Assembly: GCA_027078745.1 (NCBI GenBank)
Contig: JALWWO010000020.1
Coordinates: forward strand, 152,219-216,218
DNA: 64,000 nt
Direction: 5' to 3'
Source: Chromatiaceae bacterium
GTDB lineage: Bacteria > Pseudomonadota > Gammaproteobacteria > Chromatiales > Chromatiaceae
Under the pieces are notes generated by a model. That model was not told the origin of the DNA. It saw only the letters and a list, made by a program, of their open reading frames with translations, and made no database searches. Made by a program: the position numbers and the translations under genes. The first letter of the stretch is position 1; each line of letters opens with the position of its first letter. Positions 36,980 through 54,926 of this stretch are shown here, piece by piece.

Positions 36980-38038
36980 ATGAGGAAGCTATCTTACAGC
37001 CTGGGCGAATTAGCGCAGCACCTGGGCGGGCGACTGCACGGACCGGCAGACGCGGTAGTCTGCCGGATCGATACCTTGGAACGGGCGGATGAAGAGTGCC
37101 TCTGCTTCTTTCGGAATGCTCGATATGCGCAAGCGCTCGCCCGAACAAAGGCAGGGGTCGTATTGCTCGCCCCTCGGGACCTGAAACGATGCCCAGTGCC
37201 TGCCATCGTTACCGAAAATCCCGATCTCGCCTATGCGAAAGCCGCTCGGCTCCTCTATCCAGAACCGGCCTGGAAGCCAGGCCGCCATCCTTCCGCCGTC
37301 ATCCATCCCTCCGCCGTCATCCATCCTTCCGCTTGGATCGGGCCCAATACAGTGGTGGAAGAAGAGGTGCGCATCGAGGCGGGCGTTTTTATCGGCCCCG
37401 CCTGTACCATCGGTGCTGGCTGTCAGATCGGCGAGGATAGCCGTTTGGTGGCACGGGTCACGCTCTGTTGGGGCACTCAGGTCGGGAAACGAGTGCTGTT
37501 ACAGCCGGGCGCGGTCATCGGTCGGGATGGATTCGGGTTTGCTAAGGAAGGAGAACGCTGGGTGCGCATTCCCCAGCTGGGGCGGGTGCGCTTGGGAAAC
37601 GATGTGGAGATCGGGGCGAATAGCTGTGTGGATCGAGGTACTTTGGAAGATACTCGAATCGGCGATGGTGTGAAGATCGACAACCTGATTCAGATCGGCC
37701 ACAACTGTTCGATCGGAGCGCACACCGCCATGGCAGCTTGCTCTGGAATTTCAGGTTCCACGCGGATCGGCCGGCATTGCACGATCGCGGGGGCGGTGGG
37801 CATGGCGGGCCACCTGGACATTGGCGACCATGTGCACTTCACGGGCATGGCCATGGTTACCCGCTCTTTTCCCAAAGCAGGTGTCTATAGCAGTGGAATT
37901 CCTGCCATGCCCAATGCGGATTGGCGGCGCAATGCTGCTCGATTCCGCCATCTGGATGAACTGGCTAAGCGCATCCGACACTTGGAAGCAGAACTCGCCC
38001 GACTCTCGCAAAAACGGGAAGGAGAAGAGCCCCGCTGA
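36980..38038 (+). CDS. lpxD: UDP-3-O-acylglucosamine N-acyltransferase LpxD
   Basis: A 352-residue acyltransferase of lipid A synthesis, third step. The N-terminal uridine-binding domain spans about residues 1-100, followed by a left-handed beta-helix of hexapeptide repeats. The catalytic histidine is expected in IQIGHNCSIGAHTAMAAC. A C-terminal helix (FRHLDELAKRIRHLEAEL) completes the trimer. A near-perfect 18-bp tandem duplication in the early hexapeptide region gives HPSAVI twice. The gene sits between skp and fabZ in the conserved order. Confidence 0.96.
   Translation: MRKLSYSLGELAQHLGGRLHGPADAVVCRIDTLERADEECLCFFRNARYAQALARTKAGVVLLAPRDLKRCPVPAIVTENPDLAYAKAARLLYPEPAWKPGRHPSAVIHPSAVIHPSAWIGPNTVVEEEVRIEAGVFIGPACTIGAGCQIGEDSRLVARVTLCWGTQVGKRVLLQPGAVIGRDGFGFAKEGERWVRIPQLGRVRLGNDVEIGANSCVDRGTLEDTRIGDGVKIDNLIQIGHNCSIGAHTAMAACSGISGSTRIGRHCTIAGAVGMAGHLDIGDHVHFTGMAMVTRSFPKAGVYSSGIPAMPNADWRRNAARFRHLDELAKRIRHLEAELARLSQKREGEEPR
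37292..37327. repeat. 18-bp tandem repeat inside lpxD adding one hexapeptide
   Basis: The unit tccgccgtcatccatccc is followed directly by a copy that differs only in its last base. It encodes one additional six-residue rung edge of the beta-helix (HPSAVI twice, followed by HPSAWI). Near identity at DNA level points to a recent in-frame duplication. Confidence 0.8.
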
Positions 38039-38080
38039 TCTGCGGTTGATTCCGCTTTCTCTACTCCTTCCCTGGAGACC

Positions 38081-38545
38081 ATGGAGAATCCTCCGTTGAA
38101 GACTATGGATATTCACAGGGTGCTTCATCACCTGCCGCACCGCTATCCCTTTCTATTGATCGATCGGGTCGTCGATTTTCAGAAGGATGATTTTCTCGTC
38201 GCACTGAAGAACGTGACCTATAACGAGCCCTTTTTTAACGGACATTTTCCCGTGCGACCTGTCATGCCCGGCGTGCTGATCGTGGAGGCTATGGCGCAGG
38301 CAACGGGTCTGTTAGCCATGGCTTCCCGACCGGAAGAGGTAGGAGAACGAGCGCTCTATTACTTTGTGGGCATCGATAAGGCCCGCTTTAAGCGACCGGT
38401 GGAACCTGGGGATCAATTGATGCTCACTGTCCGGTTGCGCACGGTGCGCCGAGGCATCTGGGCCTTTCAAGGGGAAGCTCGGGTAGAGGATCAGCTCGTA
38501 GCCAGTGCTGAAATCATGTGCACCGCTCGGGACTATTCCGCTTGA
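38081..38545 (+). CDS. fabZ: 3-hydroxyacyl-[acyl-carrier-protein] dehydratase FabZ
   Basis: A 154-residue hot-dog fold dehydratase of fatty-acid synthesis. Typical motifs are [14 protein letters not shown] and the active-site helix [21 protein letters not shown], with catalytic His and Glu. The start at 38081 has GGAG at good distance; a second ATG at 38105 ([10 protein letters not shown]) is closer to the usual family N-terminus and cannot be excluded. The stop overlaps the TTG start of lpxA. Confidence 0.96.
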
Positions 38546-39306
38546 TCCATCCCACTGCAGTGATCGATCCGAGCGCTGAGCTGGATACGGGCGTACAGGT
38601 CGGTCCCTACGCTGTCATCGATGCGAACGTCAAGATCGGTCGAGATAGCTGGATTGGTCCCCATGCAGTGCTGCGAGGACCTACAGAGATCGGCCGAGAA
38701 AACCGGATCTTTCAGTTCGCTTCTATTGGAGAAGATCCCCAGGACAAAAAGTACAGGGGGGAGAGAACCCAGCTCTGCATCGGAGATCGGAATCAAATCC
38801 GAGAATTCGTCACCATCCATCGGGGCACGGTGCAAGATCAGGGGGTTACCAGAATCGGAGATGACAACCTCATTATGGCCTATTGTCATGTAGCCCACGA
38901 TTGCCGGATCGGCAATCAGGTCATCATGGCAAACGCGGCTTCGCTGGCGGGGCACGTGCAGATCGAAGATTGGGCGATTCTCGGGGGGTTCACTATCGTC
39001 CATCAATTCTGCCGAGTGGGCGCCCACAGCTTTTCTGCTATGGGGTCTGTCGTAGCCCAAGACATCCCCCCATTCGTCCTCATCAGCGGCCATCCTGCAG
39101 AAGCCCATGGCATCAATACCGAAGGGTTGCGCCGTCGAGGCTTTCCACAAGAGACCATCACTCAGCTAAAGCAAGCCTATCGTCTGCTCTATAAATCCGG
39201 CCTCCGGCTGGATCAGGCCATCGCAGCGATCCGACAGTTGGGCAATCCCAAAGCCCATCTGCTGGCGGACTTTCTATCTCAGAGTACCCGGGGATTTGTG
39301 CGCTAA
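38542..39306 (+). CDS. lpxA: UDP-N-acetylglucosamine O-acyltransferase LpxA
   Basis: A 254-residue trimeric beta-helix enzyme for the first step of lipid A synthesis. The TTG start at 38542 overlaps the fabZ stop (TTGA) and gives the common N-terminus [14 protein letters not shown]. An ATG at 38518 inside fabZ would add eight residues. Diagnostic motifs are [28 protein letters not shown] and [13 protein letters not shown], which contains the catalytic histidine. The C-terminal helical part begins near [18 protein letters not shown]. lpxB does not follow here. Confidence 0.94.
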
Positions 39307-39440
39307 AATCTCGTGCATCGGATCATTCCCTAGACTGAGCCTCTGCCGTACCGGGTTAAAAATCGCCCGCTCGGATTCTGGGATCTCTCTCATTCCAATG
39401 CTATGCTTAGGGCACTGATCTCTTGGCCAGGAACCCAAAG

Positions 39441-40202
39441 ATGAGAACACTTTGGATCGCACTGCTCAGCGTTTTCATCATTTCCCAGATCCGAGCAGAA
39501 GGGCTTCGCTACGAGGGCTCTTCTACCATCGGGCGGTTCATCGAGGAGGCCCGCAGAGCCTACCCTGGTTCTATCTCCAGCATTAAGACTAAGTCGGAGA
39601 GCAGCGGGGGAGAGCGCTGCACGGTGATGGGACGCTGTGATATCGGTGGTGTTGCCAGGAGGGTAAAACCTGGATATCTCAAGATGGGCGTAGTCGCTAC
39701 CCTCATCGGTTACGATGCCATCGCCGTGCTCGTGCATCGGGAAAATCCAGTGTCTTCCCTTTCCTCTCGACAGCTTCGGGACATCTTCCGAGGGACCATC
39801 CGGAATTGGAAAGAAGTGGGCGGAATCGATGCGCCGATCACGGTCTATATCACGAACAAGCGATCCGCCACCCATTCCGTCTTCGCTAAAAAAATCATGC
39901 AAGGTTATCGTTATAGCGCTGTGGTAGTGGAACCAGATGCTGATATCCTCAAAAAGGTCGCTGCGGATCTGGGTGGTATCGGTCAGTTGAGCATGAGCTT
40001 TTTACAGGGAGACCGCCGCATTAAACGCCTCTCCATCGACGGAGAACCGCCCACGGTCGATAACATCCACTATCCCATCACCCGCCCCCTCTATCTGGTC
40101 ACTCGAGGGGAAGCCACGGAAAGGGCGAGGCCTTTCATCGAATGGACCCTATCACCCGCAGGCCAACGCATTCTGAAACATTATTTCGTCGGGGTGCGTT
40201 AG
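39441..40202 (+). CDS. PstS-like periplasmic phosphate-binding protein, stand-alone
   Basis: A 253-residue exported binding protein. The start at 39441 is preceded by AGGAA and begins the signal peptide MRTLWIALLSVFIISQIRA. The segment EGSSTIGRFI and a later region with SRQLRDIFRGTIRNWKEVGG resemble PstS-type phosphate-binding domains (PBP-like). The gene has no pst transporter genes nearby. Such solitary members may sense or scavenge phosphate or have another ligand. It precedes the nos-associated module, but a candidate FNR-type box lies between them. Confidence 0.75.
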   Translation: MRTLWIALLSVFIISQIRAEGLRYEGSSTIGRFIEEARRAYPGSISSIKTKSESSGGERCTVMGRCDIGGVARRVKPGYLKMGVVATLIGYDAIAVLVHRENPVSSLSSRQLRDIFRGTIRNWKEVGGIDAPITVYITNKRSATHSVFAKKIMQGYRYSAVVVEPDADILKKVAADLGGIGQLSMSFLQGDRRIKRLSIDGEPPTVDNIHYPITRPLYLVTRGEATERARPFIEWTLSPAGQRILKHYFVGVR

Positions 40203-40209
40203 GCGGCTC

Positions 40210-40223
40210 CTGATCCAAGTCAA
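40210..40223 (+). promoter_or_regulatory. Imperfect FNR/Dnr-type box before the hemerythrin gene
   Basis: CTGAT-CCAA-GTCAA matches the palindromic TTGAT-N4-ATCAA consensus of the CRP/FNR family at eight of ten positions. It is centred about 62 bp before the hemerythrin start. If it acts at -41.5, the start would be near 40258, and ATTAAA at 40245-40250 lies at the expected -10 distance. It may control the module that leads into nosZ. Confidence 0.5.
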
Positions 40224-40278
40224 GGTCGAAGGAGACCTCTTTGGATTAAACCGAAAAAATCATCAGGGGGAGGAATGC

Positions 40279-40719
40279 GTGAGGATGGATGCTATCGCCC
40301 AGTTTTTCACCGCGGATCATCGCCGCTGCGATCAGCGCCTAGCTGACTGTGAAGCAGCCCTTGCGAAAAAGGATTGGCAGGAGACAGAAGCGGCCGCCGC
40401 CGCATTTCAGGAAGCTTTGCTGCGCCATTTCCTCTGGGAAGAAGAACAGCTCTTTCCAGAGATCGAGGAAGCCGCGCCCACCGCATCGGGGCCTACGGGC
40501 GTCATGCGCAGGGAGCATGAGCAGATGCGGCAGCTCCTTCGGAATCTGATGGATGCAGTCCGAGCTAAAGATCGAGAAACCTGCCTTGGGGAGCTGGAAA
40601 CCCTGCACTTACTCAATCAGCAACACAATGTCAAAGAGGAAGGCATCCTCTACCCCTTGGCCGATCAAGCCTTGGGTCCGCAAGCTAGGGATCTGATCGA
40701 GAAATTGAAGGGGGGCTGA
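40279..40719 (+). CDS. Hemerythrin-like domain protein
   Basis: A 146-residue four-helix-bundle protein with di-iron ligands in the hemerythrin order: FTADHRRCD, HFLWEEEQLFPEIE, RREHEQMR and NQQHNVKEEGILYPLAD. Hemerythrin-like domains bind O2 or nitric oxide or react with reactive nitrogen species. The GTG start at 40279 is at a good distance from GGGGGAGG (40266-40273); an ATG at 40285 is the alternative. The gene overlaps the DUF2249 gene by one base. With that and the membrane protein it forms a module preceding nosZ, probably linked to N-oxide or NO metabolism. Confidence 0.88.
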   Translation: MRMDAIAQFFTADHRRCDQRLADCEAALAKKDWQETEAAAAAFQEALLRHFLWEEEQLFPEIEEAAPTASGPTGVMRREHEQMRQLLRNLMDAVRAKDRETCLGELETLHLLNQQHNVKEEGILYPLADQALGPQARDLIEKLKGG

Positions 40720-40952
40720 TGGCAGAAGTACTGTTGGATGTCAGCCCCTTGCCACCGCCAGAGCCCCTGGAACAGATCCTGAACACCCTTGCTACCTTGT
40801 CACCAGGGGATCAACTGCGGGTGATCCACAGACGACAGCCCTTTCCCCTCTACGACCTGTTATCCCAGATGGGCTACATCTGGGAGACTGAGGAACGAGC
40901 AGACGGGCGCTTTGAAATCCTCATCCGGCCTGCTAAGGCAGATCCGTGCTGA
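40719..40952 (+). CDS. DUF2249-domain protein
   Basis: A 77-residue protein with the DUF2249 pattern. The N-terminus reads LDVSPLPPPEPLEQIL, then LSPGDQLRVIHRRQPFPLYDLL and a C-terminal strand (YIWETEERADGRFEILI). The fold is SirA/TusA-like. Its function is unknown. It often neighbours hemerythrin and denitrification genes, which fits the position here. It is translationally coupled to the hemerythrin gene and overlaps the membrane-protein gene by 7 bp. Confidence 0.85.
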   Translation: MAEVLLDVSPLPPPEPLEQILNTLATLSPGDQLRVIHRRQPFPLYDLLSQMGYIWETEERADGRFEILIRPAKADPC

Positions 40953-42235
40953 ATACCACAGGATTACGCCTGGATCAGGGCCCTCCCATTCATGTTCCTT
41001 TCCGGTTTTTTCTGACTGCACCCTTCTTCACCGTGCTCTCCGCCCTGGCCTTGCTCCACCAGGGGGAAGCGCTGTTGGCTTCCCGCTGGGTGCCGGGCAC
41101 CTTGGCCATCACCCATTGGATGGCCATCGGCTTTCTAGGACAGATCATGGCCGGGACGTTGCTTCAGATGTTGCCCGTCATCGCCGGCGCGCCCGTGCCT
41201 CGGGTACAGCATTTCGGCTGGGTTTTGCATCTTTCTCTGAGCATGGGGGCGGCGCTGCTCGGTGCCGGATTGTGGTACAGCCATCCCCCCCTGCTGCTCA
41301 CCGGTGCCCTGCTCGCGGCCCTGGGTTTTTCCGCTTTGCTCCTGGCTATCTGGCTCGCACTGTATCGGCGGCGGGGCAGTGGGCAGCAGATTCGAGGCAT
41401 TGGGTTCGCGGCTTTTTCGCTAGGGGTTACCGTCCTGTTCGGTTTTCTCCTCGCCGCTACTCTGGGGGGTTGGCTGCAACTGTCTGACCTCCTGGTCTGG
41501 GTGAATCTTCATCTGGCCTGGGCCTTTCTGGGCTGGGTGGGCTTGCTCATCGCGAGCATCAGCATTCAATTAGTGCCTCTGTTCTATGTCACCCCCAATT
41601 ACCCTGTCTGGCTCATCCGTTCTTTAGGTCCCTTGATCTTGCTCGCCCTCTGCTTGGGAACCCTGTTCGCACTGTTCCAACAACCCGCAGCGGCTCGAGT
41701 CGCCTTCGGAACTGCCGTAGCAGCCTGGATGGTTTTCGGAAGCATTACCCTGTATCTACAGCACGAGCGCAGGCGTCAGCGCATGGACCCAACGTTGCTC
41801 CACTGGTGGGTTGCCCTGCTCTGCGCATTGGTCGCGGGGATACTCTGGAGCCTGGAAGGACCACCAGTAGTGCTAGGCATCCTGCTGTTCTTCGGTTTGG
41901 CCACCGGCCTTTCCGCAGGCATGTTGTTTAAGATCATCCCCTTCCTCACCTGGTTTCATTTACAATCTCAACAATTAGGCGCTGGCCATCTGAGGGTGCG
42001 AGTGCCGAACATGCGAACTTTGCTGCCGGAGAACTGGGCCTATCTACAGGTCGCCCTCCATCTGATCGCCCTTCTCTGTCTTCTAGCCGCCTGGGCTGAG
42101 CCCAGCTGGACTTCCTTAGCCGCCTGCTTCCTCGGATCGGAGGCGGTGATCTTGTTGGTTCTCATCCTCAGAAACCTTTGGTATTTCCGCCGAGTTGCCG
42201 GCCGTATCTCCGCTGCGTCGTCCGCACAGGCGTAA
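40946..42235 (+). CDS. Polytopic membrane protein, possibly NnrS- or haem-copper-oxidase-like
   Basis: A 429-residue protein with about twelve transmembrane helices and a GTG start that overlaps the DUF2249 gene. Several histidines lie in or next to the helices: ITHWMAIGFLGQIMAGTL, VLHLSLSMGAALLGAGL, WVNLHLAWAFLGWVGLL, LLHWWVALL and FLTWFHLQSQQLG. This pattern resembles haem-binding NnrS or haem-copper oxidase subunit I-like proteins, but I cannot place it firmly. It is coupled to hemerythrin and DUF2249 and is 83 bp upstream of nosZ. That supports a role in nitric oxide or nitrous oxide metabolism or redox sensing. Confidence 0.68.
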   Translation: MLNTTGLRLDQGPPIHVPFRFFLTAPFFTVLSALALLHQGEALLASRWVPGTLAITHWMAIGFLGQIMAGTLLQMLPVIAGAPVPRVQHFGWVLHLSLSMGAALLGAGLWYSHPPLLLTGALLAALGFSALLLAIWLALYRRRGSGQQIRGIGFAAFSLGVTVLFGFLLAATLGGWLQLSDLLVWVNLHLAWAFLGWVGLLIASISIQLVPLFYVTPNYPVWLIRSLGPLILLALCLGTLFALFQQPAAARVAFGTAVAAWMVFGSITLYLQHERRRQRMDPTLLHWWVALLCALVAGILWSLEGPPVVLGILLFFGLATGLSAGMLFKIIPFLTWFHLQSQQLGAGHLRVRVPNMRTLLPENWAYLQVALHLIALLCLLAAWAEPSWTSLAACFLGSEAVILLVLILRNLWYFRRVAGRISAASSAQA

Positions 42236-42318
42236 CTGCCAGACCGCCCAGCGAAATTCTGCTAGACTTCCGAAGACCCTAAATCATCTAGGGCACTACA
42301 ACTACAGAGGAGATCAGG

Positions 42319-44631
42319 ATGCATGCGTTTGTAAAACGAAGTTTATCCTGCCTGCTGGGCACGACGCTCGCCCTGGGGGCTGGAACCAGTGCTTGGTCAA
42401 CAGAGAGTCTGCAGGAAGTGATGAAACGGCGCGGGCTCACGGAGAAGGATCTCTTGGCCGCTGCCAAGACCTACACGCCCACCGGCGGACGGGATGAGTA
42501 CCTAGCCTTCAGCTCCGGGGGACAGTCGGGACAGGTCATCGTCTACGGCATTCCCTCCATGCGGATTCTGAAATACATCGGCGTCTTCACGCCGGAACCC
42601 TGGCAGGGCTATGGATTCGACGATGAATCCAAGGCAGTGCTGCGCCAAGGCAACATCCAAGGGAAAGAAATCAACTATGGAGATACCCACCATCCGGCGA
42701 TCTCTGAGACGAACGGCGATTACGATGGCCAATATCTCTTCATCAACGACAAGGCCAATCCTCGGGTAGCGGTCATCGATCTGCATGATTTCGAGACCAA
42801 GCAAATCGTCGTCAATCCGGTGTTCAAGTCGCAGCACGGCGGCGTGTTCGTGTCTCCGAATACGGAATACGCCATGACTGCTGCCCAATATGCGGCACCT
42901 TACGAAAATGAGTATGTGCCCCTAGAACAGTTCAACGAACGCTACCGGGGTGGCATGACGTACTGGAAGTTCGATCGCAAGAAAGGGCGCATCGATCCTT
43001 CCCAGTCCTTCACAGTGATGGCACCGCCCTACAGTCAGGACCTGTCCGACTTCGGCAAGGGTCCCTCCGACGGCTGGTCTTTCACCAACTCCTTCTGCAG
43101 CGAACGCTACGTGGGCGGGATCGAACGCGGCCGTCCCCCCTTTGAAGCCGGTTGTTCCTCCAAGGATACGGACTTCTTGCACGTGGTGAATTGGCGAAAG
43201 GCGGCGGAAGTCGCCAAGGATCCGACCAAGACCCAGATCATCAACGGTCATACAGTCATCCCCATCGAGACGTCCATCAAGGAAGGTTTGCTCTATCTGA
43301 TCCCAGAACCCAAAAGCCCCCATGGGGTAGATGTGGCGCCGAATGGTCAGTACATCATCGTGTCCGGCAAGCTGGACAGCCATACCACAGTGTACAGCTT
43401 TGCCAAGATCATGAAGGCCATCGAGGAGCAGAATTTCGAGGGCAAAGACCCCTATGGAATTCCGATCCTCCCCATGAAGGCGGTCATTCACACCCAGGTG
43501 GAACTGGGCTTAGGTCCCCTGCACACCCAGTTTGATTCCAAGCCCTGCATCGCCTACACCTCCCTCTATGTGGATTCCATGGTAGGCAAATGGGACTATT
43601 GCAAAGGCAGAGTGCTGGATAAGATCTCTATCCACTACAACATCGGTCATCTGTTGACTATGGAGGGGGATACGGTCTCACCCGATGGGAAATACTTGGT
43701 CGCCCTCAACAAGCTGGCCATCGACCGCTTCAATCCGGTGGGTCCTCTGCATCCCCAGAACCATCAGCTCATCGACATCAGCGGCGACAAGATGCAGTTG
43801 TTGTACGACATGCCCATTCCTCTGGGCGAACCCCATTATGTCGTCGCCATCAAGGCGGACAAGCTGCATCCTGCTATCCGTTACAGATCTGGCTGGGATA
43901 GCCGTACCAACCGCCGCTCTCCCTACAAGACCCGGGCAGGACGGGAAAAGACGGTGCGCACCTGTGATGCGGAAGGCAAGTGCACCACCGAGGTTTGGGG
44001 CACCGTGATCCGTTCCCACATCACGCCAGAAATCATCGAGGCGGTAGAAGGGGATACAGTGCGCATCCATCTTACCAACCTGGAACGGGCGGAAGACGAG
44101 GTCCACGGCTTTGCCATGTACGGCCAGAATGTGCAGCTCTCCATCGAACCCGGGAAGACGGCTTCGACTACCTTCGTCGCGGACCGTCCGGGCGTCTACC
44201 CCTATTACTGCACCGAGTTCTGCTCCGCGCTTCATCTGGAGATGCAGGGCTATCTGCTCGTGAAGCCTAAGGACTATCAGGCCGAAGCAACTGAGATGGT
44301 CGAGGGGACCATCTACACCAAGGCGGATTATGAAGCCCAGGTGAAGACTAACTTGGAAACGCAAGCGGTAATCGATCAGGTGGTCGCCTACATCACCAGC
44401 CATAACTTCAAAGACTTCCCGACCGTGGTGGCTTTGGTGGAGGATGCTGCCGATCAGCTCGGCTTTGCCCAGGAAGCCAAGGCGAAATCCGAAGCGGCGG
44501 CGGCCAAGAAGGATTGGCAAAATGCCATGCTCTGGGCTAACCAGTGGTGGCAATACCAGGTGAAGGCGGCGGATCTGGGACTCCGCGCCAAGACCTATCT
44601 GGAACAGAACGGCGCTAAGAAGGTCAAGTAA
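42319..44631 (+). CDS. nosZ: Nitrous oxide reductase NosZ, clade II (Sec-exported) type
   Basis: A 770-residue periplasmic copper enzyme that reduces N2O to N2. The signal peptide (MHAFVKRSLSCLLGTTLALG) has no twin-arginine motif, which marks clade II. The CuZ beta-propeller contains DTHHPA (residues 122-127; His124 and His125), QHGGVFVSPN, SPHGVDVAPNGQY and other conserved histidines. The CuA site is CTEFCSALHLEM with Cys631, Cys635, His639 and Met642. The protein continues for about 120 residues with a helical, lysine-rich tail lacking CxxCH, unlike the Wolinella enzyme with its C-terminal haem. GAGGAG precedes the start. Confidence 0.95.
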   Translation: MHAFVKRSLSCLLGTTLALGAGTSAWSTESLQEVMKRRGLTEKDLLAAAKTYTPTGGRDEYLAFSSGGQSGQVIVYGIPSMRILKYIGVFTPEPWQGYGFDDESKAVLRQGNIQGKEINYGDTHHPAISETNGDYDGQYLFINDKANPRVAVIDLHDFETKQIVVNPVFKSQHGGVFVSPNTEYAMTAAQYAAPYENEYVPLEQFNERYRGGMTYWKFDRKKGRIDPSQSFTVMAPPYSQDLSDFGKGPSDGWSFTNSFCSERYVGGIERGRPPFEAGCSSKDTDFLHVVNWRKAAEVAKDPTKTQIINGHTVIPIETSIKEGLLYLIPEPKSPHGVDVAPNGQYIIVSGKLDSHTTVYSFAKIMKAIEEQNFEGKDPYGIPILPMKAVIHTQVELGLGPLHTQFDSKPCIAYTSLYVDSMVGKWDYCKGRVLDKISIHYNIGHLLTMEGDTVSPDGKYLVALNKLAIDRFNPVGPLHPQNHQLIDISGDKMQLLYDMPIPLGEPHYVVAIKADKLHPAIRYRSGWDSRTNRRSPYKTRAGREKTVRTCDAEGKCTTEVWGTVIRSHITPEIIEAVEGDTVRIHLTNLERAEDEVHGFAMYGQNVQLSIEPGKTASTTFVADRPGVYPYYCTEFCSALHLEMQGYLLVKPKDYQAEATEMVEGTIYTKADYEAQVKTNLETQAVIDQVVAYITSHNFKDFPTVVALVEDAADQLGFAQEAKAKSEAAAAKKDWQNAMLWANQWWQYQVKAADLGLRAKTYLEQNGAKKVK

Positions 44632-44654
44632 CGCGTCCCATTTTCCAGAGGACA

Positions 44655-44675
44655 GAGGGGGCCATCGGCCCCCTC
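44655..44675 (+). terminator. Strong hairpin after nosZ
   Basis: A perfect 9-bp stem GAGGGGGCC/GGCCCCCTC with loop ATC lies 24 bp after the nosZ stop. Only a weak T-rich stretch follows (ttcattcttt), so it may act as a partial terminator or an mRNA-stabilising hairpin that sets nosZ expression apart from the downstream genes. Confidence 0.65.
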
Positions 44676-44700
44676 ATCCGTTCATTCTTTGGAGAAAACT

Positions 44701-45015
44701 ATGAAAGCATTCAATTCCATTGCAACCACAGTGCTCATTCTCGGTTTTTCGAGTCCAACCTGGGCATCGGAAGGTGAAAAACTCTATGTGCAGAAAACCT
44801 GCGTAGCCTGCCATGGTAAGGATGCCAAATCACCGATTCTTCCCAGCTATCCCAAGCTCGCGGGGCAGAACCCGGACTATCTGTTTCAGCAGATGAAGGA
44901 CATTCAATCCGGTGCCCGGGATAACGGGCAAACCGCCGCCATGAAGGGGGTGATGCACCTCGTCAATGAAAAAGAGATGCGAGCCATCGCCGATTGGCTG
45001 AGCACGTTGAAGTAG
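44701..45015 (+). CDS. Monohaem class I cytochrome c, NosC-like
   Basis: A 104-residue periplasmic cytochrome. The start at 44701 has GGAG at 44691-44694; a TTG twelve bases upstream is less likely. After the signal peptide comes the haem site CVACH and a C-terminal region with MKGVMHLVNEKEMRAIADWL, where a methionine can be the second ligand. It is located directly after nosZ, where clade II clusters encode NosC cytochromes that shuttle electrons to NosZ. It is a good candidate donor for electrons from cytochrome bc1 or NosGH. Confidence 0.85.
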   Translation: MKAFNSIATTVLILGFSSPTWASEGEKLYVQKTCVACHGKDAKSPILPSYPKLAGQNPDYLFQQMKDIQSGARDNGQTAAMKGVMHLVNEKEMRAIADWLSTLK

Positions 45016-45023
45016 CGGGGTGT

Positions 45024-45089
45024 CTCGGAGGGATAGTCCGTTGATGCATATCAAAGAGCGGAAACATCCCTCTGAGCTAGGTTTTTTTT
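45024..45089 (+). terminator. Terminator-like hairpin with long loop between the two cytochrome genes
   Basis: CTCGGAGGGAT (45024-45034) pairs with ATCCCTCTGAG (45066-45076) over 11 bp including one G-U pair. The loop is 31 nt. A run of eight Ts follows at 45082-45089. This should end transcription from nosZ and the first cytochrome gene. The loop contains a perfect FNR-type box. Confidence 0.7.
45041..45054 (+). promoter_or_regulatory. Perfect FNR/Dnr-type box upstream of the second cytochrome gene
   Basis: TTGAT-GCAT-ATCAA is an exact match to the CRP/FNR-family consensus TTGAT-N4-ATCAA. It is centred about 115 bp before the start codon at 45163. Binding at -41.5 would place the transcription start near 45089, within the leader. 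It may drive the second cytochrome and nosBDGHFLY in response to low oxygen or NO. Confidence 0.75.
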
Positions 45090-45162
45090 GGATCAGACGA
45101 TTCACCATAGAGGCGCCTGGAGGGGTTGTAACCGCGCGCCTTCTGCGAACGGGAGAGTTTCT

Positions 45163-45876
45163 ATGAAATCCTTTGTCATCAAAGCAGCGGTGGTTGCGGT
45201 GAGCACCCTGCTAGCGACGAACGCTGCCTATGCTTGGAATGAGGGTGGCGGCGAACAGGATGCGGCCCTGCATCTGGAACCTGATTTGGAAAATGGCATG
45301 GAAGTCTATGAAGTGTGCTCCGCCTGCCATTTGCCCGAAGGTTGGGGACAGACCGAAGGCACCTTCCCCCAATTGGCCGGGCAGCATCGGAGCGTGCTCA
45401 TCAAACAGCTTGCAGACATCCGCGCCCGAAACCGAGACAATCCCACCATGTATCCCTTCGCCCTGCCGGAAGCTATCGGTGATGCCCAGGCGCTCGCAGA
45501 TGTGGTGGCTTATATCGAAAAGCTGCCCATGAATCCCAACTGGGGTAAGGGACCCTGGGGACCGGGCACACCGGAATATGCGGAAGGGGAAAAGCTCTTC
45601 AAGGAAAACTGTGTCAAGTGCCACGGCCCGACCGGCATGGGCGATCCTGAGAAGTTCTATCCTCGCATCAACGGACAGCACTATAAATACATGCTCCGCC
45701 AGTTCGAATGGATCCGGGATGGCAAGCGGCGCAACGCCAATCCGGAAATGGTCAAGCAGATCCAGGGATTCACGGATAAGGAGATGCAGATGGTCATCAA
45801 CTATGTTTCCCATCAACCTGTGCCTGAGGAAGACCTCGCGCCCTCTGCGGATTGGACAAATCCGGATTTCGAATAG
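45163..45876 (+). CDS. Dihaem cytochrome c (c4-like), NosC-like
   Basis: A 237-residue periplasmic dihaem cytochrome. The start at 45163 has GGGAG upstream and begins the signal peptide MKSFVIKAAVVAVSTLLATN. Haem sites are CSACH (first half) and CVKCH (second half), and the two halves share the pattern of FPQLAGQHRSVLIKQL and YPRINGQHYKYMLRQ. This is the cytochrome c4 architecture. Its place in the nos cluster suggests that it delivers electrons to NosZ. It has its own leader with a FNR-type box, so it can be expressed separately from nosZ. Confidence 0.88.
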   Translation: MKSFVIKAAVVAVSTLLATNAAYAWNEGGGEQDAALHLEPDLENGMEVYEVCSACHLPEGWGQTEGTFPQLAGQHRSVLIKQLADIRARNRDNPTMYPFALPEAIGDAQALADVVAYIEKLPMNPNWGKGPWGPGTPEYAEGEKLFKENCVKCHGPTGMGDPEKFYPRINGQHYKYMLRQFEWIRDGKRRNANPEMVKQIQGFTDKEMQMVINYVSHQPVPEEDLAPSADWTNPDFE

Positions 45877-45957
45877 GGGGCGTTGATCGCCTCGTGCATC
45901 GGCGGTTTCCTTCGGGAAATCGCCCCTTTTCTCAGGTTTTCCCGCGCAGCCGTGCCC

Positions 45958-47124
45958 ATGACAGCCAATTCTTCCCGCAACACGCCGCTCATCCTCTTCC
46001 TCAGTCTGGTAGCCTTGGGGTTTTTGGTCTGGATTTACTACAGCCCGATCTGGTGGGTTTCCCTCACGGCGCCCAACTACCCGCCGGAATCCTTCCCCGA
46101 TGGGGTGCGCATCCACTTCCACATGAACGGGGTCTTCAACGGCTGCAAGAAGGTGGAGAAAGCGGAGATCACCGAGGAAGAAGCCCTGGATTGCGTCCAC
46201 GAGATGGACACCATCAATCATTATGTGGGCATGTATCCCATCGCTGCCGGTGGGGTCATCGAACGGGCGTTCTCCCCCTTCCTGGTCTCCATGCTCGGGG
46301 TCATGATCCTGGGCTTCGCCATTCCCTGGCGAGGGATTCGCTTGATAGTAATGGGATTGGGATTCTCGGGCATCGTGGTTTGGATGTGGCTGACCTTCTA
46401 CGGGGAAAACGGCCTTCGTTTCCAGAACACGGGTTATCTATCTGCCTTGGTAACCGCCCTCAATCAGGGAGAGGAGGAACCGGAGGAATTGACGCCGGCC
46501 CAAGCGCTCATCGCACGGCTCAAGGCGGAGATGGCGGCGGTACAGGAAGCAGAGCAAGGCGAGGAACAGGCAGAAAGCCGCGAATCCGAGAAACAAAAGC
46601 TCATCCAGAGCTTGCGCACGAGCTTCGAGCAATTTCAGGCGCGCAAACCGGCCCAGGAACGGGAGGATTGGACGGGGAGCGGTGCCCAGGTGTTGCGCTG
46701 GCATTATGAAGCCAGCTTGGGCCGCTATTTCAATGATCCCGCCAAGATCGGCCCCATGAGCCGGACCATGGCCAGGACGGCGGATGCAGTGTTCTGGCTG
46801 CTGCCGGCCGCCATGCTGTTGCTCCTTTGGGGTGCCCGCAAGGATCGAGGTGTTTTGTACTGGCTCCTGATCCTGGTGCCCATGGCCCTACCTCTGTTCT
46901 TCATCGTCGACTATGCAGCTTGGCTCTGGTGGTACGGGCACACCCTCAACGATATGGGGGCCTTCACCGTGAAGCCCTTCATGCCCACGGTCTTCGGGGA
47001 TGGCAAAGTGGCCCAATTCACCACGCATTCCTACCCTTACGTGGGCTTCGGACTCATGGTGGCTCTCTCCGCCATTCTCGCCCTGATCGCCCTGCTGCGT
47101 CGCAAGCAGATCCGGCAGGCCTGA
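45958..47124 (+). CDS. nosB: NosB-like membrane protein of the clade II nos cluster
   Basis: A 388-residue polytopic protein starting at 45958 (MTANSSRNTPLILFLSL). A TTG at 45883 would add 25 residues and is the alternative. Helices lie near the N-terminus (about 13-33), around residues 100-155 and in the C-terminal third (about 280-385). A periplasmic domain contains RIHFHMNGVFNGC. A Glu- and Gln-rich coiled-coil-like segment (EEEPEELTPAQALIARLKAE onward) separates the helix groups. NosB is the membrane protein found in clade II nos clusters; its role is unknown. The name is given by position and topology, so it is less certain than the other nos genes. Confidence 0.72.
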   Translation: MTANSSRNTPLILFLSLVALGFLVWIYYSPIWWVSLTAPNYPPESFPDGVRIHFHMNGVFNGCKKVEKAEITEEEALDCVHEMDTINHYVGMYPIAAGGVIERAFSPFLVSMLGVMILGFAIPWRGIRLIVMGLGFSGIVVWMWLTFYGENGLRFQNTGYLSALVTALNQGEEEPEELTPAQALIARLKAEMAAVQEAEQGEEQAESRESEKQKLIQSLRTSFEQFQARKPAQEREDWTGSGAQVLRWHYEASLGRYFNDPAKIGPMSRTMARTADAVFWLLPAAMLLLLWGARKDRGVLYWLLILVPMALPLFFIVDYAAWLWWYGHTLNDMGAFTVKPFMPTVFGDGKVAQFTTHSYPYVGFGLMVALSAILALIALLRRKQIRQA

Positions 47125-47132
47125 AGGGAGCC

Positions 47133-48482
47133 ATGGGGAACCACGGAATTCAGGTTCTCGGTCGCTGCTGCCTGTTGGTGCTGAGCTTGGGACTGAGGTT
47201 CTCCCAAGCGGCTGAGGTCTATCCACCCTTTCAACCTCTGGTGGAGGCTGCAGAAGCAGGGAGCGTGCTGCAACCGCCTCCAGGCATCTATGCGGGTCCC
47301 GTGGTGGTGGATAAGCCCCTGACCATCGATGGGCGGGGACAGGTGACCATCGATGGGGGGGGAAAGGGCACCATCATCCGCTTGAACACGGACGGTGCCA
47401 CCCTGAAGGGCTTGCATCTGACCCATTCCGGTGACTCCCACAACGACATCGATGCGGGGGTGCAGGTGCGGGGCAATTTCAATGTCATCAAGGACAATGT
47501 CATCGATGACTGCCTGTTCGGCATCGATCTACAACAATCCAACGATAACATCGTTCGGCGCAATCGCATTACCTCCAAACCTGTAGAGCTGGGTATTCGA
47601 GGCGATGCCATCCGCCTTTGGTACAGCTTCCGGAATCAGATCACAGACAACATCATTCGCGATTCTCGGGATACGGTGGTCTGGTATTCCAAGGACAATC
47701 TCATCGCTCGCAACGATGCCCGAGGGGGGCGCTACTCCCTGCACTTCATGTATTCCCAAGGCAATCGGGTGGAGCAAAACCATTATGAAAACAACACCGT
47801 GGGCATCTTCCTCATGTACAGCGATGGGATCCTGGTTCGCGATAACTTCATCGCCAATGCGAGCGGACCCACGGGCATCGGCATCGGTTTCAAGGAAACT
47901 TCTGCAGTAACCATCGAGAACAACCGCATCTTCTCCTGTGCGGTAGGGCTCTATCTGGACGTGTCTCCCTATCAGCCAGACACCATCAATCGCTTTGTGG
48001 GCAATCTCATTGCCTACAATGGCATCGGTGTTCGCTGGCTCAACGACTGGCACGGGAATATCTTCACGGGCAACCGCTTCCAAGGGAATATCGTGCAAGT
48101 GGCTGTGGAGGGGGGAAAGACGGCCAACCGCAACCGTTGGGAGGGAAATTATTGGGACGACTACGAGGGATTCGACCGAGATGGGGACGGCATCGGCGAT
48201 ACCCCCTATGAACTCTATGCCTATGCGGATCGGCTCTGGATGGATGTTCCCTTCGCGCAATTTTTCAAAGGTACGCCCTTGTTGGAAGTGATCGATTTCT
48301 TGGAGCGCCTCGCCCCTTTCAGTCAACCGAATCTACTGGTGCGGGACCCTAAACCCCTGCGCACGCCGGATCAGCCACCGCCGCCCGTAGCAGGCCTGGA
48401 GGAAAAAGAAGCGCCTGCTCGCCCTGAGAAAACCGGCGGTTTCAACGCCTATGAAGCTCTGCGGCGCTCCCTCGGACGATAG
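47133..48482 (+). CDS. nosD: Copper-processing periplasmic protein NosD
   Basis: A 449-residue beta-helix protein required for copper-sulfur cluster assembly in NosZ. The start at 47133 follows AGGGAG and begins the signal peptide (GRCCLLVLSLGLRFSQA). Repeats of the parallel beta-helix are visible as NFNVIKDNVIDDCLFGIDLQ, NDNIVRRNRI and ENNRIFSCAVGLYLDV. The C-terminal part includes NRWEGNYWDDYEGFDRDGDG. It works with NosF and NosY. A longer upstream frame overlaps the nosB gene and is not expected to be used. Confidence 0.93.
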   Translation: MGNHGIQVLGRCCLLVLSLGLRFSQAAEVYPPFQPLVEAAEAGSVLQPPPGIYAGPVVVDKPLTIDGRGQVTIDGGGKGTIIRLNTDGATLKGLHLTHSGDSHNDIDAGVQVRGNFNVIKDNVIDDCLFGIDLQQSNDNIVRRNRITSKPVELGIRGDAIRLWYSFRNQITDNIIRDSRDTVVWYSKDNLIARNDARGGRYSLHFMYSQGNRVEQNHYENNTVGIFLMYSDGILVRDNFIANASGPTGIGIGFKETSAVTIENNRIFSCAVGLYLDVSPYQPDTINRFVGNLIAYNGIGVRWLNDWHGNIFTGNRFQGNIVQVAVEGGKTANRNRWEGNYWDDYEGFDRDGDGIGDTPYELYAYADRLWMDVPFAQFFKGTPLLEVIDFLERLAPFSQPNLLVRDPKPLRTPDQPPPPVAGLEEKEAPARPEKTGGFNAYEALRRSLGR

Positions 48483-48490
48483 CAATCCCC

Positions 48491-49348
48491 ATGTCTGAAC
48501 CGAAAACACCTTCTGGAAAGAAACGGCCCGCCCTGAGCCCCAAGCGTCGGGCGCAGAATCGTCGGGAATTTCTGCGCACTTCCCTATTGGCAACCGGTTT
48601 GGTGGCCGGTTCGCTCACCGGCCTTTTGCCTGCCCTGGGAGGCGCCAACGCCCGATTGCGCCCGCCGGGGGCCATCAAAGATCCCCAGTCCGAGCGGGAA
48701 TTTCTCGCCGCCTGCATCAAGTGCGGCCAGTGCGTGCAGGTTTGCCCAGTGGAAGCCATCAAGCTCGCTGATCTGCTCGACGGAGTAGGCGTGGGTACCC
48801 CCTATATCGAAGCCCGCGTCCAAGCCTGTGATTTCTCTTGCGACGGGCTGCAATGCGTGTTGGCCTGTCCCACAGGTGCCCTCACCCATGAAATCGACTA
48901 TCCCGCTCAAGCGCGCATGGGCTTCGCCCGTTTATCTCGGCCAGATGCCTGCTTAGCAGTGAAGAATCAGGGATTTCAGGGCCTTGCTCGGGGCGCTGCC
49001 TTTCAAGGGAAGCTGCGCTATGAGGAAATCGACCGCTGGAATCCCATTCCGGTGGCCGATCATCCCTATGATCTGCCTCTCTGCGATCTGTGTGTTCGGC
49101 AATGTCCCATCGAGATCCGCATCGCTCAATGCGCGGCAGGCAAGCCCCCCTCCGGCGATCCCAACCAATGTCCCCCTCGTCATGCAATCCGCTTAGTGCC
49201 CAAGTTGGACGGGGAAGGCGCGATGCCTGTGATCGAATCGGGCTGTGTGGGTTGCGGCGTGTGTGAAATGATCTGTCCGGTGGAACCCAGCGCCATTGTG
49301 GTGGATATCGACCGGATCGCTGAACCCGACAGCGGGATCAACGGATAG
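48491..49348 (+). CDS. nosG: Ferredoxin-type protein NosG (NapG-like)
   Basis: A 285-residue iron-sulfur protein with a twin-arginine signal (NRREFLRTSLLATGL). Four [4Fe-4S] motifs follow: CIKCGQCVQVCP, CDFSCDGLQCVLACP, CDLCVRQCP and CVGCGVCEMICP. NosG with NosH is thought to form a quinol-to-periplasm electron pathway in clade II systems, in place of NosR. It is separated from nosH by 9 bp. The positions of the clusters match NapG/MauM-type proteins, and the nos context makes NosG the best name. Confidence 0.88.
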   Translation: MSEPKTPSGKKRPALSPKRRAQNRREFLRTSLLATGLVAGSLTGLLPALGGANARLRPPGAIKDPQSEREFLAACIKCGQCVQVCPVEAIKLADLLDGVGVGTPYIEARVQACDFSCDGLQCVLACPTGALTHEIDYPAQARMGFARLSRPDACLAVKNQGFQGLARGAAFQGKLRYEEIDRWNPIPVADHPYDLPLCDLCVRQCPIEIRIAQCAAGKPPSGDPNQCPPRHAIRLVPKLDGEGAMPVIESGCVGCGVCEMICPVEPSAIVVDIDRIAEPDSGING

Positions 49349-49357
49349 GGGGCTCCC

Positions 49358-50335
49358 ATGAGTTATTTCACCGATTCCATCCGTCAATTGTTGGGATTGA
49401 AACCCCGGAAACCCCGTCCAGAAGAGCGCCTGCCGGCGGTGGTGGAAGCCTATGCGGAGAAGCGCAGGGAAAGGCTCACCAAGGAAAAGCTCCGTCAGGT
49501 GGAAGCGGGCCGTGCTCGGGCGAAGGACCGCCATAAATGGCGCAATCGCCGCTGGGCAACCCTGGTGCTCGTCAACCTGCTCTTCGTCCTGTCCTATCAT
49601 TTCGATGTGCAACTGGTGGAAGGTGCCCTCACCGCCTCCCGCGTCATCGGCTTCCACATGGCGGATCTCAACGCCGCCCTGCAAGTCATGCTTGCCTATA
49701 AACACGTGGTGCTGAATCTGGTCATCGGCACCAGCACAGTGTTTGTGCTCTGGTGGCTGCTGGGAGGGCGCACGTTTTGTTCCTGGGTCTGCCCCTATCA
49801 CCTCCTGGCCGAAGGTGCGGAAGCCATCCATCTCCGCCTGGCCCGGAAGAAATGGGTGAAGGACGTGCGTTTTCATCGGGGAGTGCGGATCGTGCTCTAT
49901 CTCCTGTTCGCCCTACTGGCGCTGCTCACCGGCTACACAGTCTTCGAGACGATCTCCCCTACGGGCATCCTCAGCCGCGCCCTGATCTATGGGCCAGGTC
50001 TCGCCTTGCTCTGGATCCTGGCCTTGTTGGCTTTTGAAATCTTCGTATCCCGCCGGGCCTGGTGTCGCTATGCCTGTCCCATCGGGGTAACCTATGGCTT
50101 CGTGGGTACGATTTCCCCCCTGCGGGTGCAGTACAACATGCAGAGCTGCCACCACGAGGGGGATTGCCGCAAGGTCTGCTTGGTGCCCCATGTGCTGGAT
50201 GTTACCATCCGAGGCCGGGCCAAGACCCTCCACACGGATATCGGCGCGGACTGCACCCGCTGCGGGCTGTGCGTGGACATCTGCCCCACCAGCTCCCTGA
50301 GCTTCAAGGTCAAGGGACTGGATAAGGTCCTGTGA
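49358..50335 (+). CDS. nosH: Membrane quinol-dehydrogenase-like protein NosH (NapH-like)
   Basis: A 325-residue protein with a basic cytoplasmic N-terminus (about 1-65) and four transmembrane helices (about 66-90, 110-132, 172-190 and 205-230). Cysteine motifs CSWVCPYHLL and CRYACPIG are near the helices, and two ferredoxin-like clusters occur at the C-terminus (CHHEGDCRKVCLVP, CTRCGLCVDICP). This is the NapH layout. It pairs with NosG to carry electrons from quinol to NosZ. It starts 9 bp after nosG and is followed 12 bp later by nosF. Confidence 0.87.
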   Translation: MSYFTDSIRQLLGLKPRKPRPEERLPAVVEAYAEKRRERLTKEKLRQVEAGRARAKDRHKWRNRRWATLVLVNLLFVLSYHFDVQLVEGALTASRVIGFHMADLNAALQVMLAYKHVVLNLVIGTSTVFVLWWLLGGRTFCSWVCPYHLLAEGAEAIHLRLARKKWVKDVRFHRGVRIVLYLLFALLALLTGYTVFETISPTGILSRALIYGPGLALLWILALLAFEIFVSRRAWCRYACPIGVTYGFVGTISPLRVQYNMQSCHHEGDCRKVCLVPHVLDVTIRGRAKTLHTDIGADCTRCGLCVDICPTSSLSFKVKGLDKVL

Positions 50336-50347
50336 GAAGAAACCGCT

Positions 50348-51229
50348 GTGATTCAATTCGAACAGATCGTCAAGCAATTCCGCCGTCAACCTGTGCTGCG
50401 GGGGCTGAGTCTCAGTGTGCAGCGAGGTGACCGAATTGCCCTAGTGGGTTCCAACGGTGCGGGAAAAACGACCCTCATCCGCTGCTTGCTGGGGGAATAC
50501 CATTATCAAGGTCGGATCCGCATCGATGGGCTGGATCCCCGAACCCAGCGCCGAGCGGTGCTCGCCAAGATCGGCTTCGTGCCCCAGCTGCCCCCGCCCC
50601 TCAAGATGCCCGTGGGCCAGCTCCTCGCCTTTGTCGCCGGCGTGTGCGATGCCCAACGGGCCCCCCTAGAAGCCGTGGCCCACCGCTTGGGATTGGACCT
50701 CGACCGCATCCGCCATCAACCCTTTGTAAAGCTTTCCGGTGGTCAAAAGCAAAAGCTCCTCATCAGCATCGCCCTGGGCAGGAATACGGAAATCCTAGTG
50801 TTGGATGAACCCGCCGCCAATCTGGACCCGGCGGCCCGTCGCATTTTTTTCGAACTGCTGGCAGAGCGGCAGGCCCTGGGGGCCCTGTTCATCTCCAGCC
50901 ATCGGTTGGATGAAGTGGCTTCCCTGGTGAACCGGGTGATCGAACTGGATCAAGGGCAGGTGGTGCTGGATGATCGGGTGGAAGATCTTGTGGATCTCTC
51001 CAGCCGATTGCACTGCCGCATTCAGCTGACCCGAGCGGATGAAGCCTTTGCCCGTGCCATCCGCGCTTGGGGCTTTGCCCAGGGGGAAGAGACGCACGCT
51101 TGGAGCGGCTGGGTGGCGGGTCCAGATCGGCTGCGCTTTTTGGGCATGTTGTCCCGCTACGCTGCCATTCTAGCGGAAATCCACCTTCAGGAAGCCCCTG
51201 CATCTGAACCCGAGACCGCCCATGCTTAA
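50348..51229 (+). CDS. nosF: ABC ATPase NosF
   Basis: A 293-residue ATP-binding protein with Walker A GSNGAGKTTLIR, Q-loop FVPQLPPPLKM, signature LSGGQKQK and Walker B ILVLDEPAANLDP. The start is GTG. With NosY it forms an ABC transporter that works with NosD to supply sulfur species or copper for the CuZ centre. It overlaps nosL by eight bases. The family assignment as an ABC ATPase is certain; the nos role comes from context. Confidence 0.92.
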   Translation: MIQFEQIVKQFRRQPVLRGLSLSVQRGDRIALVGSNGAGKTTLIRCLLGEYHYQGRIRIDGLDPRTQRRAVLAKIGFVPQLPPPLKMPVGQLLAFVAGVCDAQRAPLEAVAHRLGLDLDRIRHQPFVKLSGGQKQKLLISIALGRNTEILVLDEPAANLDPAARRIFFELLAERQALGALFISSHRLDEVASLVNRVIELDQGQVVLDDRVEDLVDLSSRLHCRIQLTRADEAFARAIRAWGFAQGEETHAWSGWVAGPDRLRFLGMLSRYAAILAEIHLQEAPASEPETAHA

Positions 51230-51719
51230 GTATTTTCTCATCGGTGGCTGGCTTGTTAGCGCGCTGCTCCTGGGGGGCTGCGGGCGGGATTCCGGCACAG
51301 GACCCGTGGCAGTACACTGGGATCGGGCCACCTGTGCCCGCTGCCGCATGGTCCTTTCCGACCGCCACCATGCCGCCCAAGTGCGGGTGAAACCTCAGGA
51401 AGGCCGATCCCGAGTTTATCTCTTCGACGATCTGGGCTGCGCGGTGATCTGGTTAGAAGACCATCCCAATTGGCGGGATGATCCTGTCACGGAAATTTGG
51501 GTCAATGACTGGCGCACCGGGGATTGGATCGATGCCCGCACTGCCTATTATTTGAAAGGCCAGGAAACCCCCATGCAGTATGGCTTGGGCGCCCAATCTG
51601 ATCCCGCGCCCGATGCCTTGGATTACTCGAGTGCGGTGAAAGCGATCTTTGCCATAGAACAGCGCTACAATGTGCACGGTGGCAATCTGGATCATCCCGC
51701 CCCCCAGCCCCAGCATTGA
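51222..51719 (+). CDS. nosL: Copper-chaperone lipoprotein NosL
   Basis: A 165-residue outer- or inner-membrane lipoprotein. The lipobox is LLLGGC with Cys at about residue 20. The metal-binding motif is CARCRMVLS (Cys-x-x-Cys-x-Met), found in NosL, followed by YLFDDLGCAVIWLED. NosL binds Cu(I) and delivers it to apo-NosZ or NosD. The C-terminal part includes TAYYLKGQETPMQYGLGAQ, with the methionine typical of the family. The gene overlaps the end of nosF and is followed directly by nosY. Confidence 0.94.
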   Translation: MLKYFLIGGWLVSALLLGGCGRDSGTGPVAVHWDRATCARCRMVLSDRHHAAQVRVKPQEGRSRVYLFDDLGCAVIWLEDHPNWRDDPVTEIWVNDWRTGDWIDARTAYYLKGQETPMQYGLGAQSDPAPDALDYSSAVKAIFAIEQRYNVHGGNLDHPAPQPQH

Positions 51720-51721
51720 AC

Positions 51722-52549
51722 ATGAAGCATCTCTGGCTCACCGCTTACACCGACATTCTGGAATCCCTGCGGGCTAAATGGTTCCTCGCCTACGGTCTGA
51801 TCTTCGGCGGGCTGGTGGCCCTGCTCTTCGTCTTCGGGCTGACGGAATCTCGGGTCATGGGCTTCACCGGCCTGTCCCGACTCATGGTCACCTATATCCA
51901 ACTGGCCATGGCGATCCTGCCTATCTTCGTATTGATCACCACCGTGCGTTCTGTGGCCGGGGATCGGGAAGCAGGGGTCTATGAGTACTTACTCGCCCTG
52001 CCCATCGGCCTGGGGGCTTGGTTCTGGGGGAAGCTCCTGGGCCGCTTTCTGGTGGTGTTCCTGCCGGTCTTCCTCGCCATGCTGGGGGCGGTGATCTGGG
52101 GCGTTGCGAAGGGTGCCCAGGTGCCCTGGGTGCTCTTCACCTATTACACGGGCTTGCTCATGGTCTTGGCTTGGTGCTTTCTGGGCATCGGCATCCTGCT
52201 CTCCACCCTGACCCGCTCCGCTGATGTGGCCCAGGCTTCCGCCTTTGTGGTCTGGCTCAGCTTGCTGCTGTTCCTGGATCTGATCCTGTTGGGCCTGATG
52301 ATTCGGGGCAATCTGCCGCCGGAAACTGTGGTGGCCATCGCCCTGGCCAATCCCCTGCAAGTCTTCCGCACAGCGGCCATGCTCCTGCTCGATCCCCAGC
52401 TCGTCTTGTTGGGACCTTCTGCCTATCTCATCCTCGACCAGTTCGGCAAGCAGGGCTATCTGGTCTATGCCCTAGCCTATCCGACCCTCTTCGGGTCCCT
52501 CTGCGCCTGGCTCGGCTATGAACTGTTCAAGCGGGGAGATCTGCCCTGA
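51722..52549 (+). CDS. nosY: ABC transporter permease NosY
   Basis: A 275-residue membrane protein with six helices. The start at 51722 (MKHLWLTAYTDILESLRAKW) lies two bases after the nosL stop, so it relies on coupling; a TTG six bases upstream is an alternative. The N-terminal amphipathic segment and the SVAGDREAGVYEYLLALPIG stretch after helix two are typical of NosY-like permeases. It completes the NosDFY complex. It is the last gene of the nos cluster and faces the convergent kinase gene 35 bp away. Confidence 0.93.
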   Translation: MKHLWLTAYTDILESLRAKWFLAYGLIFGGLVALLFVFGLTESRVMGFTGLSRLMVTYIQLAMAILPIFVLITTVRSVAGDREAGVYEYLLALPIGLGAWFWGKLLGRFLVVFLPVFLAMLGAVIWGVAKGAQVPWVLFTYYTGLLMVLAWCFLGIGILLSTLTRSADVAQASAFVVWLSLLLFLDLILLGLMIRGNLPPETVVAIALANPLQVFRTAAMLLLDPQLVLLGPSAYLILDQFGKQGYLVYALAYPTLFGSLCAWLGYELFKRGDLP

Positions 52550-52583
52550 GCGGTCGATGGAGCATGGCTGAACCCGCGCCCGA

Positions 52584-54544: not shown

Positions 54545-54546
54545 CC

Positions 54547-54882: not shown

Positions 54883-54926
54883 TACAGCATAGCAAAGGAC
54901 AGCGTCCCTGCTGTCCGGGGGAAGAG

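Follow-up and report, generated by a model that had tools for sequence, protein, structure and literature searches.

A family-wide FNR/Dnr-type box and a probable class II promoter, set within an inverted repeat, at the nosC1-nosC2 junction of a clade II nos cluster

In the nos cluster of a Chromatiaceae bacterium, the unit of electron-delivery and maturation genes that begins with the cytochrome gene nosC2 and continues as nosB-D-G-H-F-L-Y is, judging from its sequence, probably driven by a class II FNR-type promoter of its own. The predicted promoter lies in the 147-base gap between nosC1 (44701-45015) and nosC2 (45163-45876), which contains an inverted repeat, an FNR/Dnr box and a run of eight Ts (T8). 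An FNR/Dnr-type promoter for this half of the cluster had already been claimed in the first-pass annotation, and the claim is now supported by the presence of the box across the family, by class II spacing and by an Fnr protein encoded in the same genome.

Gene context and layout of the spacer

The window, i.e., the whole stretch of 64 kb that was analysed, holds the following features around the junction.

42319-44631, + strand: nosZ, Sec-dependent (clade II) nitrous oxide reductase (TIGR04246, 869.8 bits, cut-off 625)
44701-45015, + strand: nosC1, closing gene of the upstream unit, a cytochrome c with a single haem (Pfam Cytochrom_C; named from its position)
45024-45034, + strand: 5' arm of the stem, CTCGGAGGGAT, computed from the letters
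45041-45054, + strand: FNR/Dnr-type box TTGATGCATATCAA, a palindrome with 0 mismatches, centre at 45047.5
45066-45076, + strand: 3' arm of the stem, ATCCCTCTGAG, with one G-U pair
45078-45083, + strand: candidate -10 TAGGTT, a weak match, hexamer centre 33 nt from the box centre
45082-45089, + strand: T8, interpreted as promoter melting region and not as terminator tail
45090-45162, + strand: predicted 5' leader of nosC2, 73 nt, derived from class II spacing if the start is 45090
45163-45876, + strand: nosC2, first gene of the downstream unit (two Pfam Cytochrom_C stretches; named from its position)
45883-52549, + strand: remainder of the downstream unit, NosB, NosD, NosG-like, NosH-like, NosF-like ATPase, NosL and NosY-like permease

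With NosZ accompanied by accessory nos genes, this is, by its family matches, a clade II (Sec-dependent) nos cluster. NosD was assigned with TIGR04247 (399.3 bits, cut-off 300), one protein of the downstream unit matched the NapH/MauN family TIGR02163 (236.8, cut-off 213.05) and NosL and ABC2 membrane families were identified with Pfam, while a NapG-like match remained under its cut-off and NosB, lacking a family match, was named by position only. In NosZ, which comprises 770 aa, the TIGR04246 match reaches residue 650, and the roughly 120 aa beyond it form a C-terminal extension.

The coordinates were recomputed and confirmed the first description of the element, namely an 11-bp stem with one G-U pair, a 31-nt loop, eight Ts and an exact box. 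The stem consists of 6 G-C pairs, 4 A-T pairs and the single G-U pair, and the box conforms without mismatch to the FNR/DNR-type palindrome TTGATnnnnATCAA. T8, which occurs a single time on either strand within the 64 kb, begins 5 nt past the stem with CTAGG in between, a feature missing from the earlier description. Directly ahead of nosZ, no box with up to two mismatches was found. A box with two mismatches (CTGATCCAAGTCAA, 40210-40223) precedes a hemerythrin gene and perhaps marks the start of the nosZ unit. The gap between nosZ and nosC1 features a strong G/C hairpin without a clear T-run (44655-44675, GAGGGGGCC-ATC-GGCCCCCTC), which may set the nosC1:nosZ ratio or protect the nosZ transcript. 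An Rfam search of positions 40000-54000 at E<=1 gave 0 matches.

Besides the box at 45041-45054, the window contains no perfect one, and its sites with up to two mismatches number 29 (21.6 expected). In the whole genome (2.18 Mb, 97% complete), perfect boxes amount to 8, compared with about 0.6 expected from the base composition of the window. Two of the other seven are intragenic, and their neighbours include the fnr gene, a multihaem cytochrome and an NnrS-like membrane protein, as judged by eye from the translations. Another perfect box of the genome (L003) is followed by TGG-TAGGAT 23-28 nt downstream. Three Crp/Fnr proteins are encoded in this genome, one of which clears the NCBIfam Fnr cut-off (272.3 bits, cut-off 228); the regulator acting on the box would most likely be FNR, or else one of the two other Crp/Fnr proteins. 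The gene of one of the three adjoins an apparent norC, identified by eye, and TTGATGCATGTCAA (L011:957-970), one base off the window box, is found in this genome with an apparent norC on one side and a Crp/Fnr regulator gene on the other. The genome further encodes cytochrome d1 proteins (best 527 bits), which are consistent with a cd1 nitrite reductase, and no copper nitrite reductase was found above cut-off.

Conservation of the box and geometry of the promoter

A nosC2 match at E<=1e-90 was found in 95 of 210 family genomes, and the order-level search for relatives of the window again covered 210 genomes; the genomes searched included no further member of the window's own genus. Altogether, 98 loci were examined, comprising 26 of the 30 loci of the first set and 72 regions; the four unused loci (L038-L041) show 51-53% identity. 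A nosC1 homologue lies directly upstream of nosC2 in 79 of the 98 loci, and the remaining 19 were excluded from the spacer counts, although 15 of them feature a box with up to two mismatches within 350 nt upstream. The comparison of the spacer in relatives, proposed as a check in the first-pass annotation, turned out clearly in favour of the box: with up to two mismatches it is kept in 69 of the 79 nosC1-nosC2 spacers (68 of 78 without the window), with 44, 19 and 6 loci showing zero, one and two mismatches, respectively. In shuffles, on average 0.73 of the 79 spacers reached a box with at most one mismatch and 8.6 one with at most two, so that the box looks functional. The culturable relative Sedimenticola selenatireducens is among those with a perfect box in this spacer. 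As one genus, g8, alone contributes 20 of the 69 loci, the box was also counted by group, and it is present in 25 of 28 genus or lineage groups, being absent from g2, g10 and g24.

In a second set of 80 loci, 9 loci without nosC1, 21 repeats of earlier sequences and 7 zero-length spacers, perhaps fused or overlapping genes, were dropped. The box was present in 37 of the resulting 43 new resolved spacers, a count without shuffle control, and 10 of these 37 spacers exceed 900 nt, a length at which a box with up to two mismatches is less telling. Across both sets, none of the nine spacers shorter than 70 nt, which offer little room, has a box, as opposed to 106 of the 113 longer ones. The ten boxless spacers among the 79 include that of the second-nearest genus by NosC2 identity (L013, 77%; spacer of 39 nt). 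They also include six loci of one genus (L014, L047, L048, L050, L051, L052), whose spacers measure 163-238 nt and contain no box (at least three mismatches), an apparent loss or replacement of box control. In the spacer of L046, two perfect boxes flank a hairpin, the first of them overlapping the nosC1 stop codon.

In E. coli-type class II FNR promoters, the centre of the box lies approximately 41.5-42.5 bp before the start, a geometry with which a -10 element at a centre-to-centre distance of about 32 nt from the box agrees. The alignment of 35 dereplicated spacers on the box, including that of the window, revealed an extended -10 common to the relatives at just this distance (centre ~32 nt from the box centre). 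A hexamer, often CAnACT, occupies positions 23-28 past the box (A at 24 in 23/35, T at 28 in 25/35) and is preceded by T20 and G21 in 20 and 21 of the 35 spacers, respectively; in addition, a G stands two bases past the box in 33 of 35. A TG ahead of the -10 was present in 25 of 33 training sequences, a generous figure as it derives from the best of six registers. Many relatives (L027, L030, L031, L032, L034 and others) also carry a CTAATAT block about 7-13 nt past the box, which is missing from the window.

The window itself features TAGGTT at 24-29 nt past the box, one base farther than in most relatives, with three of six matches to TATAAT, without TG and at the 90th percentile of window positions. 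Accordingly, it is a plausible but weak -10 candidate by sequence, and since the match is weak, a start near 45090 is only a prediction. A generic promoter scan of positions 38000-56000 returned three sites, none of them at the spacer, and 7.2 in shuffles. The three loci of the closest genus (L042-L044) read TGTTATTTTT, TGTTACTTTT and TGTTATGTTT at the place of the -10, so that the box is accompanied by TGT-TATTTT, TACTTT or TATGTT at the counterpart of TAGGTT. Since the closest genus, which lacks the stem, retains both the box and a T-rich -10, the T-rich run is most simply regarded as promoter DNA, and the T-run of the window is probably of the same nature.

The stem around the box

A stem as good as that of the window appeared around the box in about 0.2% of 5000 shuffles of the flanks with the box kept (p 0.002); a bulge-tolerant test gave p 0.03. 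RNAfold placed the stem within the minimum-energy structure, with weaker inner pairs inside the 31-nt loop and an energy that is not exceptional: 14 of 200 shuffles were equally good for 79 nt (z -1.65) and 31 of 200 for 176 nt (z -1.19). A TransTermHP-style tail score amounted to -1.14 directly past the stem, a value matched or bettered at 14.8% of window positions, and to -5.21 if started at T8. Intrinsic terminators consist of a G/C-rich hairpin with a U-tract immediately behind it, their median loop is reported as 4 nt, and TransTermHP limits loops to 3-13 nt (PMC12207403). The window shares with them the G/C-rich stem and a T-run downstream, but differs by the 5-nt gap that separates stem and T-run, where an adjacent U-tract would be expected, and by its 31-nt loop. 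A terminator scan of positions 38000-56000 listed 16 candidates (14.3 in shuffles) and cannot list the spacer stem, as its loop limit is 8. Thus, the claim of the first-pass annotation that the nosZ-cytochrome transcript ends here at a terminator is weak, given the detached T-run, the poor tail score and the overlong loop, and is further weakened by the closest genus, in whose three loci the box and the T-rich -10 are kept and a stem like that of the window was not found. By these features the stem is at most a poor intrinsic terminator, while a weak or factor-assisted 3' end would be possible. An influence of box-bound protein on termination, also suggested in the first-pass annotation, would be a further conjecture.

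Stems enclosing the box occur in further lineages, and their sequences are unrelated between loci. The clearest terminator-like case, as read from its sequence, is the distant relative L015, in which 20 bp and the five pairs of the box itself form a perfect hairpin of 25 bp, closed by a loop of 4 nt (z -7.89) and with the box as its tip; the tail reads UUUGUCAUU, with the -10 TGT-CATTAT directly behind. L034 features a 12-bp stem around the box, L164 and L179 have AU-rich stems of 12 and 11 bp, and none of these three represents a usual terminator, since no T-run follows the stem. Stems around the box also occur in L049 and L053, both GC-rich, L049 having its own upstream hairpin and L053 partly likewise. 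In L032, L049, L107 and L046, a significant hairpin has its end no more than two bases from the box. In L164, L179 and L143, AU-rich inverted repeats adjoin the box on both sides, again with no T-run, and their arms differ among the three loci with changes that appear, by eye, to compensate each other.

Counted over 106 loci in 54 clusters, a stem score of at least 24 was reached by six clusters according to the best member and by five according to the median member, where cross-pairing of arms from different clusters predicts 0.12-0.22; both the score and this threshold were picked after the first results had been seen, and without the window, which had been chosen for its stem, the counts are five and four. 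Exact-stem tests were positive at p<=0.05 in 12 of 69 loci of the first set and in 5 of 37 of the second, and the bulge-tolerant test in 8 of 69 loci versus 3 of 68 in a shifted control. For the 20 sequences of genus g8, RNAalifold revealed no shared structure beyond the palindrome of the box itself. Within g8, the two arms of one species paired at -8.3 kcal/mol and arms swapped between species at -6.3 kcal/mol (permutation p 0.0006), a statistic that ignores kinship and is not counted as proof.

Competing explanations and comparison with known systems

For the preferred reading, a class II FNR-type promoter between nosC1 and nosC2, we infer binding, start site and signal as follows. A dimer of the Crp/Fnr family, most likely FNR, would bind TTGATGCATATCAA and contact RNA polymerase at the -10 TAGGTT, which overlaps the T-run; transcription would start near 45090, some 42 bp downstream of the box. 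The genes for electron delivery and maturation would thereby become a transcription unit of their own that can be induced independently of nosZ-nosC1. Counting against this reading are the weak -10 of the window, its extra base of spacing, the ten spacers in which the box is missing and the extreme length of ten box-bearing spacers in the second set. As a guess, the stem might slow or partly end the upstream transcript or protect its 3' end, and the resulting effect could be less read-through over the promoter.

The explanations differ mainly in the role ascribed to this stem. A possible, though tentatively held, one is that the FNR promoter is all there is, with a functionless inverted repeat and a T-run owned by the promoter, which is compatible with the promoter part of the preferred reading. 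It agrees with the stemless loci of the closest genus, the modest excess in the bulge-tolerant test over its shifted control and the ordinary fold energy of the whole region, but leaves unexplained the p of 0.002 for the window stem and the five to six clusters with high stem scores, where far fewer than one is expected. That the nosZ-nosC1 transcript is brought to its end by a functional intrinsic terminator, with the next unit starting from an FNR promoter nested in this terminator, appears unlikely: the shuffling result for the stem, its place in the minimum-energy fold, the unique T8, the clean terminator-like version in L015 and, in L032, L049, L107 and L046, the strong hairpins that end at the box or close to it argue for it, whereas the offset of the T-run, the tail score, the loop length and the three stemless loci of the closest genus argue against it. 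A broader version, that composite switches have evolved time and again between nosC1 and nosC2, is likewise doubtful on the present sequences. Here the box would sit in a hairpin tip or loop with the -10 right behind the 3' arm; as RNA the element would end the upstream unit, with FNR it would start the downstream unit and it may block oncoming polymerase. The window, L015, L034 and L164/L179, being lineages with unrelated stems, are the cases cited for it.

Two further explanations fare worse. FNR might act in part as a repressor or roadblock and so switch between the class II start and a promoter at the CTAATAT block; many relatives do carry the block besides a class II -10, but the window is without it, which renders such overlapping promoters very improbable here. 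Least credible of all is an ordinary intrinsic terminator with a chance palindrome in its loop, which would account for the existence of stem and T8, but not for a box conserved far above shuffles within a stem that is not conserved, nor for the detached T-run and the long loop. A class II FNR-type promoter is the reading preferred for the junction. It leads to the prediction that low oxygen or NO controls the reductase separately from the genes for electron delivery and maturation in many clade II N2O reducers among the gammaproteobacteria, which bears on when these organisms consume or leak the greenhouse gas N2O. Should the hairpin be functional, a stop signal, an activator site and a promoter would be packed into the same few bases.

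Compared with class II FNR promoters of the E. coli type, the window shares the predicted spacing from box to start and differs by its weak -10 and the inverted-repeat arms flanking the box. In E. coli frd-ampC, a terminator overlaps the next promoter, so that the end of one unit and the beginning of its neighbour are encoded in common DNA, as may be the case in the window; we know of no activator box in the hairpin loop of that system. Among the literature matches listed (titles and beginnings of abstracts), an FNR box in a terminator loop was not found, which does not by itself establish novelty. The DNR/NnrR regulons of denitrifiers feature the same TTGATnnnnATCAA box ahead of denitrification genes including nosZ, whereas the box of the window splits the nos cluster (PMC1274295). 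In Nitrosophilus labii, nosZ and nosB each open a unit of their own, and an exact Crp/Fnr box begins 48 bases ahead of the start predicted for nosB (PMC11539149). The separation of nosZ from the accessory genes and the distance of the box from the predicted start (48 versus 49 bases) are similar to the window, but N. labii belongs to a different bacterial class, its box lies ahead of nosB instead of between nosC1 and nosC2, and the available parts of that source mention no hairpin, which the box of the window has. The promoter is therefore of a known type in a little-described position, and the packing of the box into a hairpin is the variant.
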